A stretch of DNA of 64,000 nucleotides. Source: Rhodopirellula bahusiensis. Its GTDB lineage: Bacteria > Planctomycetota > Planctomycetia > Pirellulales > Pirellulaceae. Below, in pieces: positions 32,719-39,725 of the stretch (position 1 is its first letter; the number at the start of each line of letters is the position of its first letter). Made by a program: the position numbers and the translations under genes. The notes below the pieces were generated by a model, which saw only the letters and a list, made by a program, of their open reading frames with translations, had not been told where the DNA came from and did no database searches. The stretch lies in assembly GCF_002727185.1 (NCBI RefSeq), contig NZ_NIZW01000002.1:372001-436000 (forward strand), written 5' to 3'.

Positions 32719-35220
32719 CTACTTGAACAGATCCTGGACCTGCTGGTTTCGAGTTTCTTCGGTTTCCTCGATCAATTCTTCCTGATCGCTGATTAACCCT
32801 CGGACCAAATCCAGAATTTCGTTGAAACTTTCTAGGTCAAGCATTTTTTCCAAGACGGCATTGAGCGACAGAAGGACCTCGTCGGTTGTAGCAATTGCCG
32901 CAGTCGCTGCGTCGGTCATCTTTGCGGGAGACGATTCGGCGGTGTCCTCGGACATCAGCACGCGTTCCATCGAAGTGATTTGACGCTGCAAACGTGGCAA
33001 GGGTTCCGTCACAACCGCGGACAAGGGGTCATGCACCCCAACTTCCAATCGTTCACGACGGTCAACCGAATCGACTCGGTTCTGCACCATTTCCAACAGC
33101 ATGTCCTCCAGCCCGACGACGATCCCGGCCAATTCTTCGGTCGATTTGGTCGTCTGCAATTCAGCTTGGCGAATCCGCAGTTGGACTCGTTGTCGGGCCC
33201 GCACGTCTTCTTCACCGTCAACTTCGTTGTCTTCGAGTACGTCGGACTCATCCGGATTGTTTTCCTCTTCCGGAGACTGGAGAACATCCAGTGCGTCGTT
33301 TTGAACCGCGGCCAAGCTTTGGCGCAGTCGCTGAGTCTCGTCGATGGCTTGTTCCAATCGCGAGCGGAATTCCAGTTCGCGTCGCTCCAGAGTTGCCAGC
33401 AGAGTTTCTGGAGTTACGACTTGAAGACGAACCACTTCGCCGCGAATTGAGTGGGGGGCACCCAGATTGAAACGGTCTTTGGCCGTCGTGAAAATCTGCA
33501 CGCTTGCTCCAGGAGCCAACCCACTGACGGTTCCGTCGTCGGTCAAGTCTCGCAAGTCGAACGTCCAATCGGCATTCCCATCGCGATCCATCTCGGGCGA
33601 AACCGTGTGCTGCTGCGGTTCCGCATTGATCGAGTCGTCCGGTTTGGCTTCGCTGCTGTTATCGGCGACGTTCTCTTCGGAGGCTCGGACGGCCATGGTC
33701 AGGCTCAACGATTCCACGCCGTAGTCATCCGTCGCGGTCGCTTGGATCGGCAGCATCGCGATTGGAGTGATCGACGAACCGATGCCCTTCATGGTCATCG
33801 ATGTCTCGGGGACTTGGTCGCGAACGACGCCGATGAAGTATCGATACGAGGCTTGGGCTGAGATACCGGTCTCGTCTTTGGGAACCAAACGCACGGACGT
33901 GGGTTCTCGCAAATCCGTTACGGACCACTCAAATGACATTCGATCGTCCGCGATCTTGACGACCGGTTCGGCGGCTTCGTTTTCACTGTCTTCGTTCACG
34001 TCTTCGGACGTCGTGGAGACATCCACTGCGCCGAGCGGTTTGCTGCTTGTTCCACGAAGCGTCAACGAACTGCCTTCGCGAATTCGGAAGCCAGCTTGGT
34101 ATTTCAAAATTTGATCGGACGAATCAGGCGAGGCACCGCCGGCGTCGAAGATTCGCAAGTAGTCCGGGTAGCGAATCGCCAGTTCCATGTCCGCGATCGC
34201 GGGCGGGTCGACGGCTTCGATTCGATAGTCGAGCAAGCGATCGTCCAAGCCACGAATCGTCATCGTGACGGACTCGGCGAGTGACGCCAGCGGCGGGCCA
34301 TCCAGCACGAATGATTGGTAGCCATCTTGGATCCGACCGACTCGTCGAAGGTTGCTTTGACCTCGATTGCCGGAATCATCCACATAAGAAACGGTGCAGA
34401 TCTCCGGCACGGTGTGCCCGAGTTCTTCCGTTGCGGCGCGAATGCGAAGCGTCGTGCTACTGCCACGAGCCAACCTCAGCGTCTTGTCTTCGAAGGACAG
34501 CAGCTCGGTGCCGACTTCTTCGGTTTCATCCGCGGTGATGATTGGCGACTCGACGCCGATCATTTCGAGCTCGGCTTTGCGCGGCCAAGGTGAATCCGAA
34601 AACAACGACAACCGTCCAACCGCTCTGGCAAATGTTTGCGGGCTGGCAATCGCCATCACCAACGCCGCCAGCAACAACGGAACGACCAGCATCAACTTGC
34701 GACGGATCGGCTCCCATCGGAACACTCGCCCAAATTCGACTTGGTCCACCGCCGCGGCGGCTTCTTGGTGAACATGTTGCAGAAGGACAGGACTGTGCGA
34801 ATCGTGCGAACGATTTTGTTGAGTCAGTTGGACGGCGGTGACCAGGCGTCCGCCGAGACTTGGGTGATGACGTTCTATCAGCAACGCCAATGAGTCATCG
34901 GGCAATTCGCGATTGAGTCGCCCCCACAACCATTTGGCCAGGATCACGACGACCAAGACGGCGACAACAAACAGAACGACCGCACGAGCCGAACGAGGCA
35001 TTTCGCTGCCGCCGATCCGAACCGGCAGATAGTCGACGGCGAGTGCCACCCAAAAAACGACCAGCACGAGCGCCGCGATCGCGAGCAGCGAATCCCAAAC
35101 GATGTAGCGCCGCACCCGGTCTCTTAGTCGTGACAATAAATCACGAAGCCCCGGATCCAACGATTCAGTACGACCCATCCGATTCCCAATTCGATTTGTA
35201 CGTGTGTCCGTCGTCCCCAT
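32719..35220 (-). CDS. DUF4175-like large membrane protein
   Basis: The 833-residue protein has three N-terminal membrane segments (IVWDSLLAIAALVLVVFWVA, VVLFVVAVLVVVILAKWLWG and LMLVVPLLLAALVMAIA). Between the second and third comes DDSLALLIERHHPSLGGRLV, a phrase typical of DUF4175-like proteins. A long periplasmic beta-rich region follows (~200-560), then a coiled coil (ERRELEFRSRLEQAIDETQR) and helical C-terminus. ATG 35220 is used; ATG 35178 is also possible. It starts 137 bases after the Pup-ligase-like gene and precedes two helical exported proteins, so the cluster may be one transcription unit. The domain name rests on pattern recall; the function is unknown. Confidence 0.8.
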   Translation of the reverse strand: MGTTDTRTNRIGNRMGRTESLDPGLRDLLSRLRDRVRRYIVWDSLLAIAALVLVVFWVALAVDYLPVRIGGSEMPRSARAVVLFVVAVLVVVILAKWLWGRLNRELPDDSLALLIERHHPSLGGRLVTAVQLTQQNRSHDSHSPVLLQHVHQEAAAAVDQVEFGRVFRWEPIRRKLMLVVPLLLAALVMAIASPQTFARAVGRLSLFSDSPWPRKAELEMIGVESPIITADETEEVGTELLSFEDKTLRLARGSSTTLRIRAATEELGHTVPEICTVSYVDDSGNRGQSNLRRVGRIQDGYQSFVLDGPPLASLAESVTMTIRGLDDRLLDYRIEAVDPPAIADMELAIRYPDYLRIFDAGGASPDSSDQILKYQAGFRIREGSSLTLRGTSSKPLGAVDVSTTSEDVNEDSENEAAEPVVKIADDRMSFEWSVTDLREPTSVRLVPKDETGISAQASYRYFIGVVRDQVPETSMTMKGIGSSITPIAMLPIQATATDDYGVESLSLTMAVRASEENVADNSSEAKPDDSINAEPQQHTVSPEMDRDGNADWTFDLRDLTDDGTVSGLAPGASVQIFTTAKDRFNLGAPHSIRGEVVRLQVVTPETLLATLERRELEFRSRLEQAIDETQRLRQSLAAVQNDALDVLQSPEEENNPDESDVLEDNEVDGEEDVRARQRVQLRIRQAELQTTKSTEELAGIVVGLEDMLLEMVQNRVDSVDRRERLEVGVHDPLSAVVTEPLPRLQRQITSMERVLMSEDTAESSPAKMTDAATAAIATTDEVLLSLNAVLEKMLDLESFNEILDLVRGLISDQEELIEETEETRNQQVQDLFK

Positions 35221-35357: not shown

Positions 35358-37205
35358 TCAGTTCGATCGGCGAGGCTTCTGGCGGGAGCTGACTCGTTGG
35401 CCATAATAGATCACTGTGCGAATGCCCTGACGGTGACCCACCAAGGCTCGATCCCAATCCGTTCGCATCGTCGGTCCACCAGCCACGGAGACCTCGCCGG
35501 CGAATTCACGAATCATCCATCCACGTTGAGCTGCGGGCGAATCAGCCGGTGCGTTGCGGCGACGCATCTGGATGTCGTCGCCATCGACCAATTCACGTTC
35601 GCTGTGATCGGCGATGAAGCGAGCGAAATAACCGTCTTCTGACAGCTCGTGGTAGCGAAGATCGATCTTCTTCCGCGAGATCCAAGACGCATGCTCACCC
35701 GCCATGTCGCCGACGGCTTGGTCCAGCATCCAACGTTTTCCCAGCCAATCGATTCGACCGAGTCCTTGTGCGGTTTGATTGCCATCCTTGCGGAACTGTC
35801 GCACCAACCGAATCGACTCGGCCCAGTGCTGAAGTGCACGATCGGCTTCGTCCCATTCCGATGTTTGTCTCGAATGCTGTTGCTGATCACGGACGAACTT
35901 CTCTGCCGCACGATAGTATTTCGTTTGCATCTCCAGCGAAGTCATCTCACCGTGGCTGGTAGGAACCCGGCGAAGCAAGTTCCAATCGCGATTGAAAACA
36001 TGCAGGGCTCGAATTGGACGACGAAGTTTGGGCAAGTCTTTGGTTTGCTTGGCTTCGATCATATCCAAAACCAAAGCCACGCTGCCGACCTTGGCCCACT
36101 GAGCAAGATCGCTGAGGTTGGAATCGGACAGTCCGATTTGCAGTCGTTGTCTGCGTTTCAACAGTTGTCCTGTCTCTGCGATCGAACGCCAAGAACGACC
36201 ACACAGCTTGGACAACCAGTGTCCGTAAACGAAAATTGGACGTTCGCCGTTGAAGCCACCCATGTCGGCAACCCGATCGACTCCCAACGCTTTGCCCGAC
36301 AAAAAAAAGCAACCGTCATGGTCCAGGTGGCCGGTCCCCATGATCGCGACTCGCGACACGAGCAAGCCGGTCAAGTAGCGACGCTGAGATCGAAACGCGA
36401 GATGCGAACCGATCACTCGCAGCGACATCACCAGCGGAAGGTGAAGCATTCGCAGCGAGGTGATGGACAACCACTGAAACCATCTCGGCAAAGCAACGAA
36501 GCTCTGCTCCGAATCGTTCGTGTCAACACGCTCGTGTTGGCCTGGTTGACTGTCAGTGCCGTGATCATCGCGACGAATGATCGAAGAGGCTCGTTGGCAC
36601 AATTGCTGAATCAATGAAGCGACAACGATTGCGACAACAACAGGGAACGACAGCAGCACGCAAGCGATCTGCAATGCCCAAACAAAACAAATCGCGATGC
36701 GATACGTCAGCAAACCGAAACCGGTCGCGACGTCGGTCTCGTAGTTCTCTTGGCACCCATATAAATGGCCGGCCGCGTCGCAGCTGTTCTTCAGGACACG
36801 AAGCCGATCCACGTTTTGATCGGCCGACCACTGAACTTCGCGTGAAGCGTCTCGCATGATCTCATCGATCGCGCGTTGGCATGCCACCAGATCGCTCGGG
36901 CGATAAACTTCCGGAGTGGCCATTTCGACCAGCCCGCCCGGTCCATCGCGGAACGCGAGGTGAGTTTCCAGGTTGATCGCGGAGCCGTTGGCCAGAAATC
37001 GACGGTCACCGCCGTCCAGTCCTTCCACCGCGGGCATATGCCGGCAGATGGCGTTTCGCAGAGCCACGTAGACCTCACGTGCCGAAACTTCCGACTTCAG
37101 CGAACCGTCACTCGGTTCGATGAAGGTCGCGAATTCGGTTTCCATTCCCATCAGTCGCCGACACAGACGCTGGTGGATGGCAATCTTCGCTGATGGCTGC
37201 GTCAT
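35358..37205 (-). CDS. Pup ligase/depupylase (PafA/Dop, PafA2) family protein with membrane insertion
   Basis: The 615-residue protein carries the carboxylate-amine-ligase-like motifs of the PafA/Dop family in order: GMETEF (20-25, metal/ATP glutamates), FLANGSAINLE (70-80), EMATPE (94-99), LKNSCDAAGHLYGCQENY (138-155, compare KNN-D-G-SYG-HENY), LVSRVAIMGTGHLDHDG, RLQIGLSDSNLSDLAQWAKV, VALVLDMIEA, DWLGKRWMLD, DLRYHELSEDGYFARF and AAQRGW. Between the HENY-like and LVSR motifs about 110 extra residues are inserted, with a strong hydrophobic stretch at 170-200. Canonical enzymes (~480-500 residues) lack this. The conserved acidic residue after the GAR-like motif appears as Glu80 here. It starts 27 bases after the Pup-like peptide gene. 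The likely role is ATP-dependent isopeptide ligation (or removal) of that peptide. Confidence 0.85.
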   Translation of the reverse strand: MTQPSAKIAIHQRLCRRLMGMETEFATFIEPSDGSLKSEVSAREVYVALRNAICRHMPAVEGLDGGDRRFLANGSAINLETHLAFRDGPGGLVEMATPEVYRPSDLVACQRAIDEIMRDASREVQWSADQNVDRLRVLKNSCDAAGHLYGCQENYETDVATGFGLLTYRIAICFVWALQIACVLLSFPVVVAIVVASLIQQLCQRASSIIRRDDHGTDSQPGQHERVDTNDSEQSFVALPRWFQWLSITSLRMLHLPLVMSLRVIGSHLAFRSQRRYLTGLLVSRVAIMGTGHLDHDGCFFLSGKALGVDRVADMGGFNGERPIFVYGHWLSKLCGRSWRSIAETGQLLKRRQRLQIGLSDSNLSDLAQWAKVGSVALVLDMIEAKQTKDLPKLRRPIRALHVFNRDWNLLRRVPTSHGEMTSLEMQTKYYRAAEKFVRDQQQHSRQTSEWDEADRALQHWAESIRLVRQFRKDGNQTAQGLGRIDWLGKRWMLDQAVGDMAGEHASWISRKKIDLRYHELSEDGYFARFIADHSERELVDGDDIQMRRRNAPADSPAAQRGWMIREFAGEVSVAGGPTMRTDWDRALVGHRQGIRTVIYYGQRVSSRQKPRRSN

Positions 37206-37232
37206 GAGTGGAACGGGCGTTTGGGGCCGGAA

Positions 37233-37442
37233 TCATTCGCCGTCGTGGTGCGTGTTCGCTCGGTGAACGTACGTCGCCGCATCCTCGCGGGCGTCCAAGC
37301 TGATGGATGACGCAAATGCTTGCAGTCCCGCCTTGTCGTTGTCCGGCGACTGCGGCGCCGAGGGCTCGACTGGCAACGGACGCGGAAGGTGGGGCCGGTT
37401 TCGCGGTGGAGCAGCGTTTGGCTGCGTTTCAGTGACATTCAT
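37233..37442 (-). CDS. Pup/UBact-like small modifier peptide ending in Gly-Glu
   Basis: This 69-residue peptide sits 27 bases upstream of the Pup-ligase homologue on the same strand. ATG at 37442 has GGAAGG about ten bases upstream. It fits the modifier type: 60-70 residues, a Pro-rich N-terminal half that should be disordered (APPRNRPHLPRPLPVEP), a short helical-looking segment (AGLQAFASSISLDAREDAATY, residues 38-58, quoted as start AGLQAF and end DAATY), and a C-terminal Gly-Glu (HHDGE). Pup-Glu and UBact end likewise in a Glu that can be ligated without deamidation. The usual Gly-Gly is replaced by Asp-Gly, and the canonical UBact arginine-rich end is not kept. Only one lysine (K37) is present. 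The assignment rests on size, ending and operon position. Confidence 0.65.
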   Translation of the reverse strand: MNVTETQPNAAPPRNRPHLPRPLPVEPSAPQSPDNDKAGLQAFASSISLDAREDAATYVHRANTHHDGE

Positions 37443-37467
37443 ATTGAGAAGACCTTCCGTTCGACTT

Positions 37468-37623
37468 TCAGAACGATTCCATTTGCTCGGGCCGCGTTGA
37501 TCGGATGATCATCACCGCCATCCGATTGATGGGCAGTGCGCGGTGTTTCGCGTTGACTCCTTCGGTGCCATCCATTTGGCCACCTTGGTCACCATGGAGC
37601 AGCAACGCGGTCGGTGTCGTCAT
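37468..37623 (-). CDS. 51-residue small ORF heading the Pup-like operon
   Basis: ATG 37623 has a textbook ribosome site, AGGAG with 7-base spacing, the best in this operon. The peptide begins MTTPTALLLHGDQGG and ends STRPEQMESF; its stop is 25 bases before the Pup-like ATG. No signal peptide, membrane helix or known motif is apparent. It may be a leader peptide that couples translation, a real small partner, or a target/adaptor of the tagging system. It overlaps an opposite-strand open frame that I do not believe is coding. Not assigned to any family. Confidence 0.5.
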   Translation of the reverse strand: MTTPTALLLHGDQGGQMDGTEGVNAKHRALPINRMAVMIIRSTRPEQMESF

Positions 37624-38393: not shown

Positions 38394-39725
38394 ATGAGCG
38401 AAGTCGAACTCGAAGTTCTCGACCTGAAGCAAATGGTTCTGGCGAGCAACTCGTTCGGCCCCAGCGACGTCGCCGAAATTCGGCAGGCGATCACCGAAAA
38501 CTACGGACACTTCGGTGAACTGCGCGACGCGGTCAACGAAATGGAGCAGGACGACGCCCTGACTCCCGCCGGCAAAACCAAAATGGGTGTTTGCCAATTC
38601 ATGCTGGGCCGTTTCAAAGACGCGTCGGAGACTCTCTCCGCCGCCGACGGAAGCGCGATGGCGTTGTTCTACAACGCTCGTTGCCAATTTGAATTGTCGA
38701 GCTTTGATGGGGCAATCGAAGGTTACGAACAAGCCAAAACGTCGGGCTACAACGAAGACCAGTGCAAAATCGGTATCGCCGAAGCCAAGCGTTACCAAGG
38801 CAAGATCGAAGAAGCGATGGCGATCTTGGACGACATCTTCGGCCCCGCCGAACAAACCGCGGACTACATGTACCAACGTGCGGCAACCGCCGCTCAAATC
38901 GGTGGCCGGATGGAAGAAGCCATCAATTTGTACCAACGTGCGGTTTCGACTGACGAAAACCACGCAGGTGCCTTGTTTGGTTTGGCTCTCGAAAACGACC
39001 GCTTGGGCAACGACGACGAAGCTCTTCGTTTGTACGAGCGTGCCGCGAAAGCATTTCCGACCGGCATCGGTGCCCTGATCAACTTGGGCGTGATGTACGA
39101 AGACAATGGGCAATACGACAAAGCCCAGCTTTGCTACAAGCGAATTCTGGATTGCCACCCCGATCACCCTCGGACGCAGCTGTACATGAAGGACGCTTCG
39201 GCGACCGGAAACATGCTGTACGACGAGGAAGCCCAACGTCGCAACGATCGTTTGGCTCAAACGTTGAACATGCCTGTTGCAAACTTTGAACTCAGCGTTC
39301 GAAGCCGCAACTGCCTGCAAAAGATGGGCATCGAAACGATTGGCGACCTGACCCGCCACAGCGAACAAGAGTTGCTTTCGAGCAAGAACTTCGGCGAAAC
39401 CAGCTTGGTCGAAATTCGCGAAATGCTGTCGCAAAAAGGTTTGTCGCTCGGCCAGTTCGCTGGTGAGAAGAAATCCAACGACCCGCCTGTCGACACTTCG
39501 CACATGTCGCCCGACGAACAAGCGTTGCTGGAGCGTCCCATCGCGGACCTCAACCTTTCCGTACGTGCTCGCAAGTGCATGACTCGATTGCAAATCAACT
39601 CCATCGGTGAGCTGATCCGCAAGACGGGCGACGACATGCTCGAGTGCAAGAACTTTGGGGTGACCAGTTTGAACGAAGTTCGCGAAAAGCTGGGTGACCT
39701 CGGATTGAAAATGCGGGGCGACTGA
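38394..39725 (+). CDS. TPR protein with two RNA polymerase alpha-CTD-like domains
   Basis: The 443-residue protein has TPR-type repeats over residues ~50-260 ([60 protein letters not shown]). Two helix-hairpin-helix modules of the RNA-polymerase alpha C-terminal type follow: ~280-350 ([39 protein letters not shown]) and ~375-441 ([37 protein letters not shown]). It has no alpha N-terminal domain, so it is not RpoA itself. Family members are found across planctomycetes. By analogy the alpha-CTD modules could bind DNA UP-like sites or transcription factors. It is five bases upstream of tgt, so both are likely co-transcribed. Confidence 0.88.

Follow-up and report, generated by a model that had tools for sequence, protein, structure and literature searches.

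A probable two-gene, membrane-type pupylation system in Rhodopirellula bahusiensis and its family

Introduction

The DNA analysed here, referred to as the window, is a stretch of 64,000 nucleotides from the planctomycete Rhodopirellula bahusiensis (contig NZ_NIZW01000002.1), on whose minus strand a gene for a 69-residue peptide ending in Asp-Gly-Glu is followed by one for a 615-residue enzyme of the Pup ligase family (PF03136). These two genes can be taken with good confidence to encode a membrane-type pupylation system, in which the peptide would act as a Pup-type modifier, or tag, and the enzyme as its ligase. An earlier sequence-only reading had proposed a protein-tagging operon at this place; its core, a small modifier with a conserved Gly-Glu end, has held up, while the novelty of kind, the UBact type and the third component that it added have not. 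The transmembrane (TM)-type pair is common in the family Pirellulaceae, sometimes with its two genes far apart.

Joint occurrence of tag and enzyme

The sample comprised 241 genomes of the family, all searched both with PF03136 and with a profile of the peptide (56 rows, 35 columns, E 0.01), which gave 120 and 111 positive genomes, respectively. Enzyme and peptide motif were found together in 108 genomes, the enzyme alone in 12, the motif alone in three and neither in 118; that is, the motif is present in 108/120 genomes with the enzyme family and in 3/121 without it. Among the 92 genomes that did not belong to the 149 sampled first, the corresponding counts were 42, 5, 2 and 43, or 41, 5, 2 and 43 of 91 when G207, whose own peptide is in the profile (as L002), is left out (genomes, contigs and loci carry G, C and L numbers). 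Within the window's genus the pair is complete in six of 13 genomes, and both parts are absent from the other seven. Tag and enzyme are thus mostly present or absent together. At the level of the phylum, PF03136 was found in 38 of 392 genomes drawn from it.

Among the enzyme-only genomes, G010, G074 and G163 carry a divergent upstream peptide, ...YLGQVN[SA]RQSGE, recognised by eye and scoring E 0.28-0.37; the sole PF03136 locus of G122 is UBact-like (L087), the only PF03136 gene of G108 is of another kind, with a GLEHE motif (L090 4277-6093, minus strand), and G089 and G126 are contig-end cuts or fragmentary. As for the motif-only genomes, the match is weak and partial in G093 and G186 and genuine in G226, a draft 86% complete (...RSDTGHDGE). 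The peptide upstream of L090 ends in CLSGE, and no Dop or ATPase was recognised by eye in the surroundings of this locus.

Some genomes hold two ligases. In G234 (C32, C97, C64) there are two PF03136 genes and as many tags, enzyme and tag lying together in one pair and apart in the other, and three genomes of one genus (G103, G006 and G072) have two TM-type ligases each, every one with its own adjacent tag. In these three genomes (L040/L041/L044, L046/L048/L049) one tag ends in DGGE and the other in QQGE.

The tag peptide

Adjacent peptides were collected from 86 ligase-bearing loci, some of them redundant, by choosing same-strand open reading frames (ORFs) that close with Gly-Glu or Gly-Gln and fit a loose pattern of Tyr/Leu spacing. 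Such a peptide was found at 54 of the 86 loci, with 50 distinct C-terminal 50-mers; in this set, chosen partly by ending, Gly-Glu closes 50/50 and Gly-Gln 0/50. The consensus is L..I..D......YL.e..vp.GGE, GGE being the most frequent end. The 32 loci without an adjacent pick belong to the displaced clade described below, are cut by contig ends, or are L075 and L079, where the peptide and the upstream part of the open frame of the enzyme overlap. Moreover, a protein-database profile search with Asp-Gly-Glu (DGE) peptides and no filter on the end returned 42 rows, the window's own included, all 42 of which end in DGE. The Gly-Glu end is thus conserved among relatives, as the earlier reading had expected.

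The tag varies in its N-terminal half, and conservation is confined to about the last 30 residues, the peptide of the congener G130 ending in YLHRANTHHDGE. The bias towards synonymous substitution that had been anticipated is seen in the tail: as pair sums over six genomes of the genus, synonymous (pS) and nonsynonymous (pN) differences are 0.48 and 0.023 in the last 12 codons, and 0.53 and 0.22 in the last 31. The tag peptide is a real gene, with purifying selection on its tail. An AlphaFold2 (AF2) model of the tag (42 relatives; predicted local distance difference test, pLDDT, 72.0; predicted template modelling score, pTM, 0.35) shows a coil, helices at 33-53 and 55-64 and a tail, and is like the bihelical unit with extended tail described for Pup in 2008 (PMC2588565).

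The claim that similarity searches would miss the peptide proved half right: no Pfam or NCBIfam family matches it, and its named database relatives are hypothetical proteins, none with a Pfam domain, but a profile of relatives does find it.

The enzyme

The enzyme scores 263 bits against Pfam Pup_ligase, is the sole PF03136 match in its own genome and also matches the NCBIfam PafA and Dop models, well under their curated cut-offs. All four PafA/Dop motifs quoted in the earlier reading are present in its translation, and the five solved chains matched by its sequence at E 0.1 are all Dop or PafA. Glu80, invariant in the 57 rows of an enzyme alignment, corresponds to Asp in the PafA structure 4b0t and to Asn in 4bjr. 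From the Gly of GMETE to the Glu of EMATPE, a hand count gives 74 residues in the window enzyme, 56 in PafA and 93 in Dop; part of the excess loop length of the window enzyme falls after Glu80. The nearest database enzymes are 76-83% identical and come from Rhodopirellula species where named, and the enzyme of G130, in the same genus, is 84% identical. In a genome recorded as Rhodopirellula maiorica SM1, the ligase gene lies in two frames (L012/L086 2175-4060), through sequencing error or decay.

Residues 162-289 form an insert without counterpart in PafA/Dop. Hydropathy windows lie at 157-207 and, as a family mean, at 243-271, and AF2 places helices at 162-212, 241-269 and 272-289; together they suggest a hairpin of long helices, and not the four clear TM segments described in 2008. 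The insert is likely a membrane anchor, and the enzyme is probably held at the membrane by it.

Displaced tag genes

Outside the genus, the closest enzymes (41-47% identity) often have no peptide alongside; the names given for them include Stieleria, Rubripirellula, Roseiconus and Novipirellula. When 18 genomes with the enzyme and no adjacent tag were searched with a 40-row profile, a full-length tag was found elsewhere in 16 of them, fifteen at E 0.017 or better; the tag of G148 gave E 0.26 with this profile and 1e-10 with one holding its own peptide. The 40-row profile found no tag in G116 or in G126, whose enzyme begins at a contig end. In all 16 fetched stretches the tag, chosen as the top-scoring profile hit that closes with Gly-Glu or Gly-Gln, ends in DGE. 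An enzyme without a tag in the Stieleria/Rubripirellula-type clade can thus be discarded, and the expectation that the peptide always lies just upstream of the ligase holds in many relatives but fails in one clade, where the gene is elsewhere.

By hand tally, enzyme and peptide are apart in 34 genomes. Eight of these (G055, G087, G138, G148, G213, G214, G231 and G233) have both on the same contig, at least 0.59 Mb from each other; in the other 26 the two fall on separate contigs of draft assemblies, a weaker sign of separation. In a tree of 71 enzymes, from which redundant, split and cut loci were dropped, the DGE enzymes and two AGE enzymes form one clade (100/100, 23 rows), inside which the 15 displaced rows form a single clade (100/99), so that a single displacement event is probable. 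A cluster at 81/89 takes in most GGE enzymes (30, with two cut loci), L041 and L058 being GGE enzymes outside it, and in the rest of the tree Gly-Glu is preceded by Q, Y, N, E, V, S or C. The root is unsure because three canonical-type rows stand on very long branches. A tag search limited to the ligase neighbourhood misses part of the system, the displaced tags being hypothetical proteins in the databases.

Gene layout and neighbouring genes

The three minus-strand ORFs of the sequence-only reading, of 51, 69 and 615 residues, are present as it described them, separated by gaps of 25 and 27 bases (Table 1); the peptide frame closes with ...HHDGE (THHDGE), and the longer gap leads to the enzyme. 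A promoter and terminator scan stayed near shuffle level.

Table 1. Position of the gene pair, its parts and its neighbours in the window
Feature	Position	Strand	Basis
Pup-type modifier, 69 residues, Asp-Gly-Glu end	37233..37442 (stop included)	(-)	ORF translation, conservation
Conserved tail, last 12 codons of the modifier (YVHRANTHHDGE)	37236..37271	(-)	pS/pN
Pup ligase-family enzyme (PF03136), 615 residues	35358..37205	(-)	Pfam, structure comparison
Hydrophobic helical insert, enzyme residues 162-289, likely membrane anchor	36339..36722	(-)	Hydropathy, AF2
Codon of enzyme Glu80	36966..36968	(-)	Alignment with 4b0t and 4bjr
51-residue ORF, probably leader or untranslated region	37468..37623	(-)	Congener comparison
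833-residue membrane protein, downstream of the enzyme, probably no dedicated partner	32719..35220	(-)	

The 51-residue ORF had been counted as a third component. Its stop codon is absent from G130, G207, G209 and G212, the only other congeners aligning there, no match to it was found in the congener G208, and what the congeners have in common is mainly a short C-terminal stretch, RPEQMESF. On these grounds it is rejected as a component of the system, and it is probably a leader or an untranslated region.

In the 75 loci that were placed (six without an assigned ORF were left out, and small clusters were partly named), no conserved functional neighbour stood out besides the peptide, the widest other cluster covering 14/75 loci at scattered positions. 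The 833-residue membrane protein was considered as a partner and dropped: a homologue (62-64% identity) is kept in 7/7 congeners without the pair, with other large genes preceding it, so its link with the pair looks historical. A homologue recognised by eye lies 1.3-1.5 kb from the displaced tag in 4/16 genomes. In an empty-site comparison, neither the tRNA-Thr nor the tetratricopeptide repeat (TPR) gene was found near the 833-residue gene in the seven pair-less genomes. Furthermore, positions 38394-39725 of the window encode a 443-residue protein that combines TPR repeats with RNA polymerase alpha C-terminal domains and is 97-99.8% identical in five congeners, the adjacent 372-residue gene being 97-98.7% identical and the enzyme only 76-84%.

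The one PF00227 match of the window's genome lies on contig C9 (G000:C9, L015 653-2259) and the pair on C2. The PF00227 protein adjoins a transglutaminase-like gene, which we take to be an Anbu-like arrangement.

Proposed function and alternatives

In the proposed mechanism, the short protein would be a Pup-type modifier with a variable N-terminal half, two predicted helices and an extended tail ending in Asp-Gly-Glu, and the enzyme a Pup ligase of glutamine-synthetase fold, whose hydrophobic insert may anchor it to the cytoplasmic face of the membrane. The enzyme would use ATP to phosphorylate the gamma-carboxylate of the tag's C-terminal Glu, and the activated tag would be transferred onto a lysine in some protein close to the membrane; no deamidase would be needed, because the tag already ends in Glu. 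The fate of the tag would be independent of the 20S proteasome, none having been detected. A more specific version can be put forward tentatively, namely a self-contained, proteasome-free, membrane-tethered pupylation with a single enzyme for both the attachment and the removal of a dedicated Pup class (...LRSNTxHDGE), giving a reversible regulatory mark on membrane-associated proteins, with the two-gene system dispersed in one large clade.

Several points weigh against pupylation by this pair. The biochemical activity of the planctomycete members is a prediction from their genes; the choice of adjacent peptides was made partly by ending; the statistic for co-occurrence (Fisher p 3.6e-50) ignores phylogeny; and in five drafts with the enzyme (G116, G221, G222, G224 and G237) the peptide was not found. 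Glu replaces the Asp of PafA in 67/68 enzymes, and the activity may therefore differ; the enzyme model is also nearer to Dop than to PafA by structure score. As regards the proteasome, the 20S beta model TIGR03690 found 0/241 genomes over its curated cut-off, in a search where no control genome passed it either, and there were weak matches in four genomes of another genus. The Mpa/ARC model TIGR03689 found 0/241 at E 1e-100, five candidates being scored per genome and Corynebacterium glutamicum serving as positive control; the AAA ATPase of L089, a UBact-like locus in G009, likewise escaped this search. These negatives concern the actinobacterial type only, and other partner ATPases or proteases are possible because of the limits of both searches.

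The main alternative concerns the outcome of tagging. Tagged proteins might be degraded by another AAA+ protease (FtsH, Lon, Clp or an Anbu-linked machine) and not by the 20S proteasome, a serious but rather doubtful option, with which the presumably Anbu-like gene arrangement in the same genome is in keeping. Pup in actinobacteria does serve degradation (PMC2588565), but among the placed loci no conserved protease or ATPase neighbour was conspicuous, and the restriction of conservation to the tail of the tag also speaks against this fate. It is unlikely that the enzyme matures the peptide by adding a small amine or amino acid to its C-terminal Glu, with no protein conjugation: the wider fold family (GCS2/YbdK) acts on small molecules, but the enzyme is much nearer to PafA/Dop than to GCS2 in both sequence and fold.

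An enzyme acting as depupylase or deamidase only has a slim chance. Some database names read "Depupylase" or "Pup deamidase/depupylase", many others giving the PafA2 family, Dop is the best structural match, and PafA of M. tuberculosis also shows depupylase activity (PMC5358908); nevertheless, the genome holds no second PF03136 enzyme and the tag is already Glu-ended. Finally, a decayed or non-functional relic is hardly credible, since the absence of the pair from seven of the 13 genomes of the genus, which would suit it, has to be set against a tail under purifying selection, motif residues that do not vary and joint presence or absence. Pupylation at the membrane thus stays the preferred reading of the pair. 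Pupylation is known above all for leading proteins to the proteasome; because 108/241 genomes have both genes and 0/241 a 20S beta subunit over the cut-off, its role without a linked proteasome, a question raised by the work of 2008, is now testable in cultured species.

Comparison with known systems

With the actinobacterial Pup-proteasome system the window shares the PF03136 fold and motifs and a tag with two helices and a Gly-Glu/Gln end. It differs in that its genome has no separate Dop, in the membrane insert and the Glu for Asp of its enzyme, in a tag whose Glu end needs no deamidation, and in the lack, throughout the family sample, of 20S beta and Mpa/ARC matches over the curated cut-offs.

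UBact-type systems, attributed to Lehmann et al. 2017, reportedly hold Dop, PafA, an ATPase and the UBact gene in one locus. The window resembles them in having a non-actinobacterial Pup relative with a PafA-like enzyme, but its genome has one PF03136 gene and not the four-gene locus by which the type is defined, and its tag ends in THHDGE, not RRNxSGQ. UBact-like clusters exist separately in six Pirellulaceae genomes (L089 5907-13180, minus strand; L087, L088, L091, L092 and L093); they encode a pair of PF03136 enzymes, an AAA ATPase (enzymes and ATPase confirmed with Pfam for L089 only) and, in five of them, the RRNxSGQ peptide, L093 being cut before it. Membership of the UBact type, which the sequence-only reading had named beside Pup, is rejected on these grounds. 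A weak Prok-JAB match, below the Pfam cut-off, was seen in 3/3 scanned UBact-like loci (L089, L092, L093); it would be unusual for a Pup-like locus to hold a protein of JAB type.

Some Planctomycetes are known to carry a single-copy homologue of both PafA and Dop, used as an outgroup in 2020 (PMC7947786), in passages that mention neither a planctomycete tag peptide nor a membrane insert. The closest precedent is that of Iyer, Burroughs and Aravind (2008, PMC2588565), who described in Rhodopirellula and Plesiocystis a Pup together with a Pup ligase bearing a four-TM insert, with a membrane-protein gene next to the pair and no proteasome genes linked to it, and who suggested that membrane proteins are modified; their reply to a referee adds that Pup was unannotated in Rhodopirellula and that its gene neighbours PafA wherever PafA is found. 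The pair is therefore not new in kind, and to judge by its sequence that of the window is very probably the orthologue of the Rhodopirellula pair of 2008: it has a PF03136 ligase with the catalytic motifs and a hydrophobic insert after core strand 4, an adjacent Pup within the 50-90 residue range ending in G[EQ] (69 residues, DGE), no linked proteasome genes and a neighbouring membrane-protein gene, in the same genus. No treatment of displaced Pup genes or of the DGE clade was found in the literature searched, mostly non-subscription papers, the DGE end of the Rhodopirellula Pup being possibly printed in the Pup alignment of Additional file 1 of the 2008 paper. To the text of that paper the present analysis adds the 34 genomes with the genes apart, the DGE end as the mark of one clade and the retention of the membrane-protein neighbour by pair-less genomes; co-occurrence across the family and selection on the tail are likewise additions to what was described in 2008.
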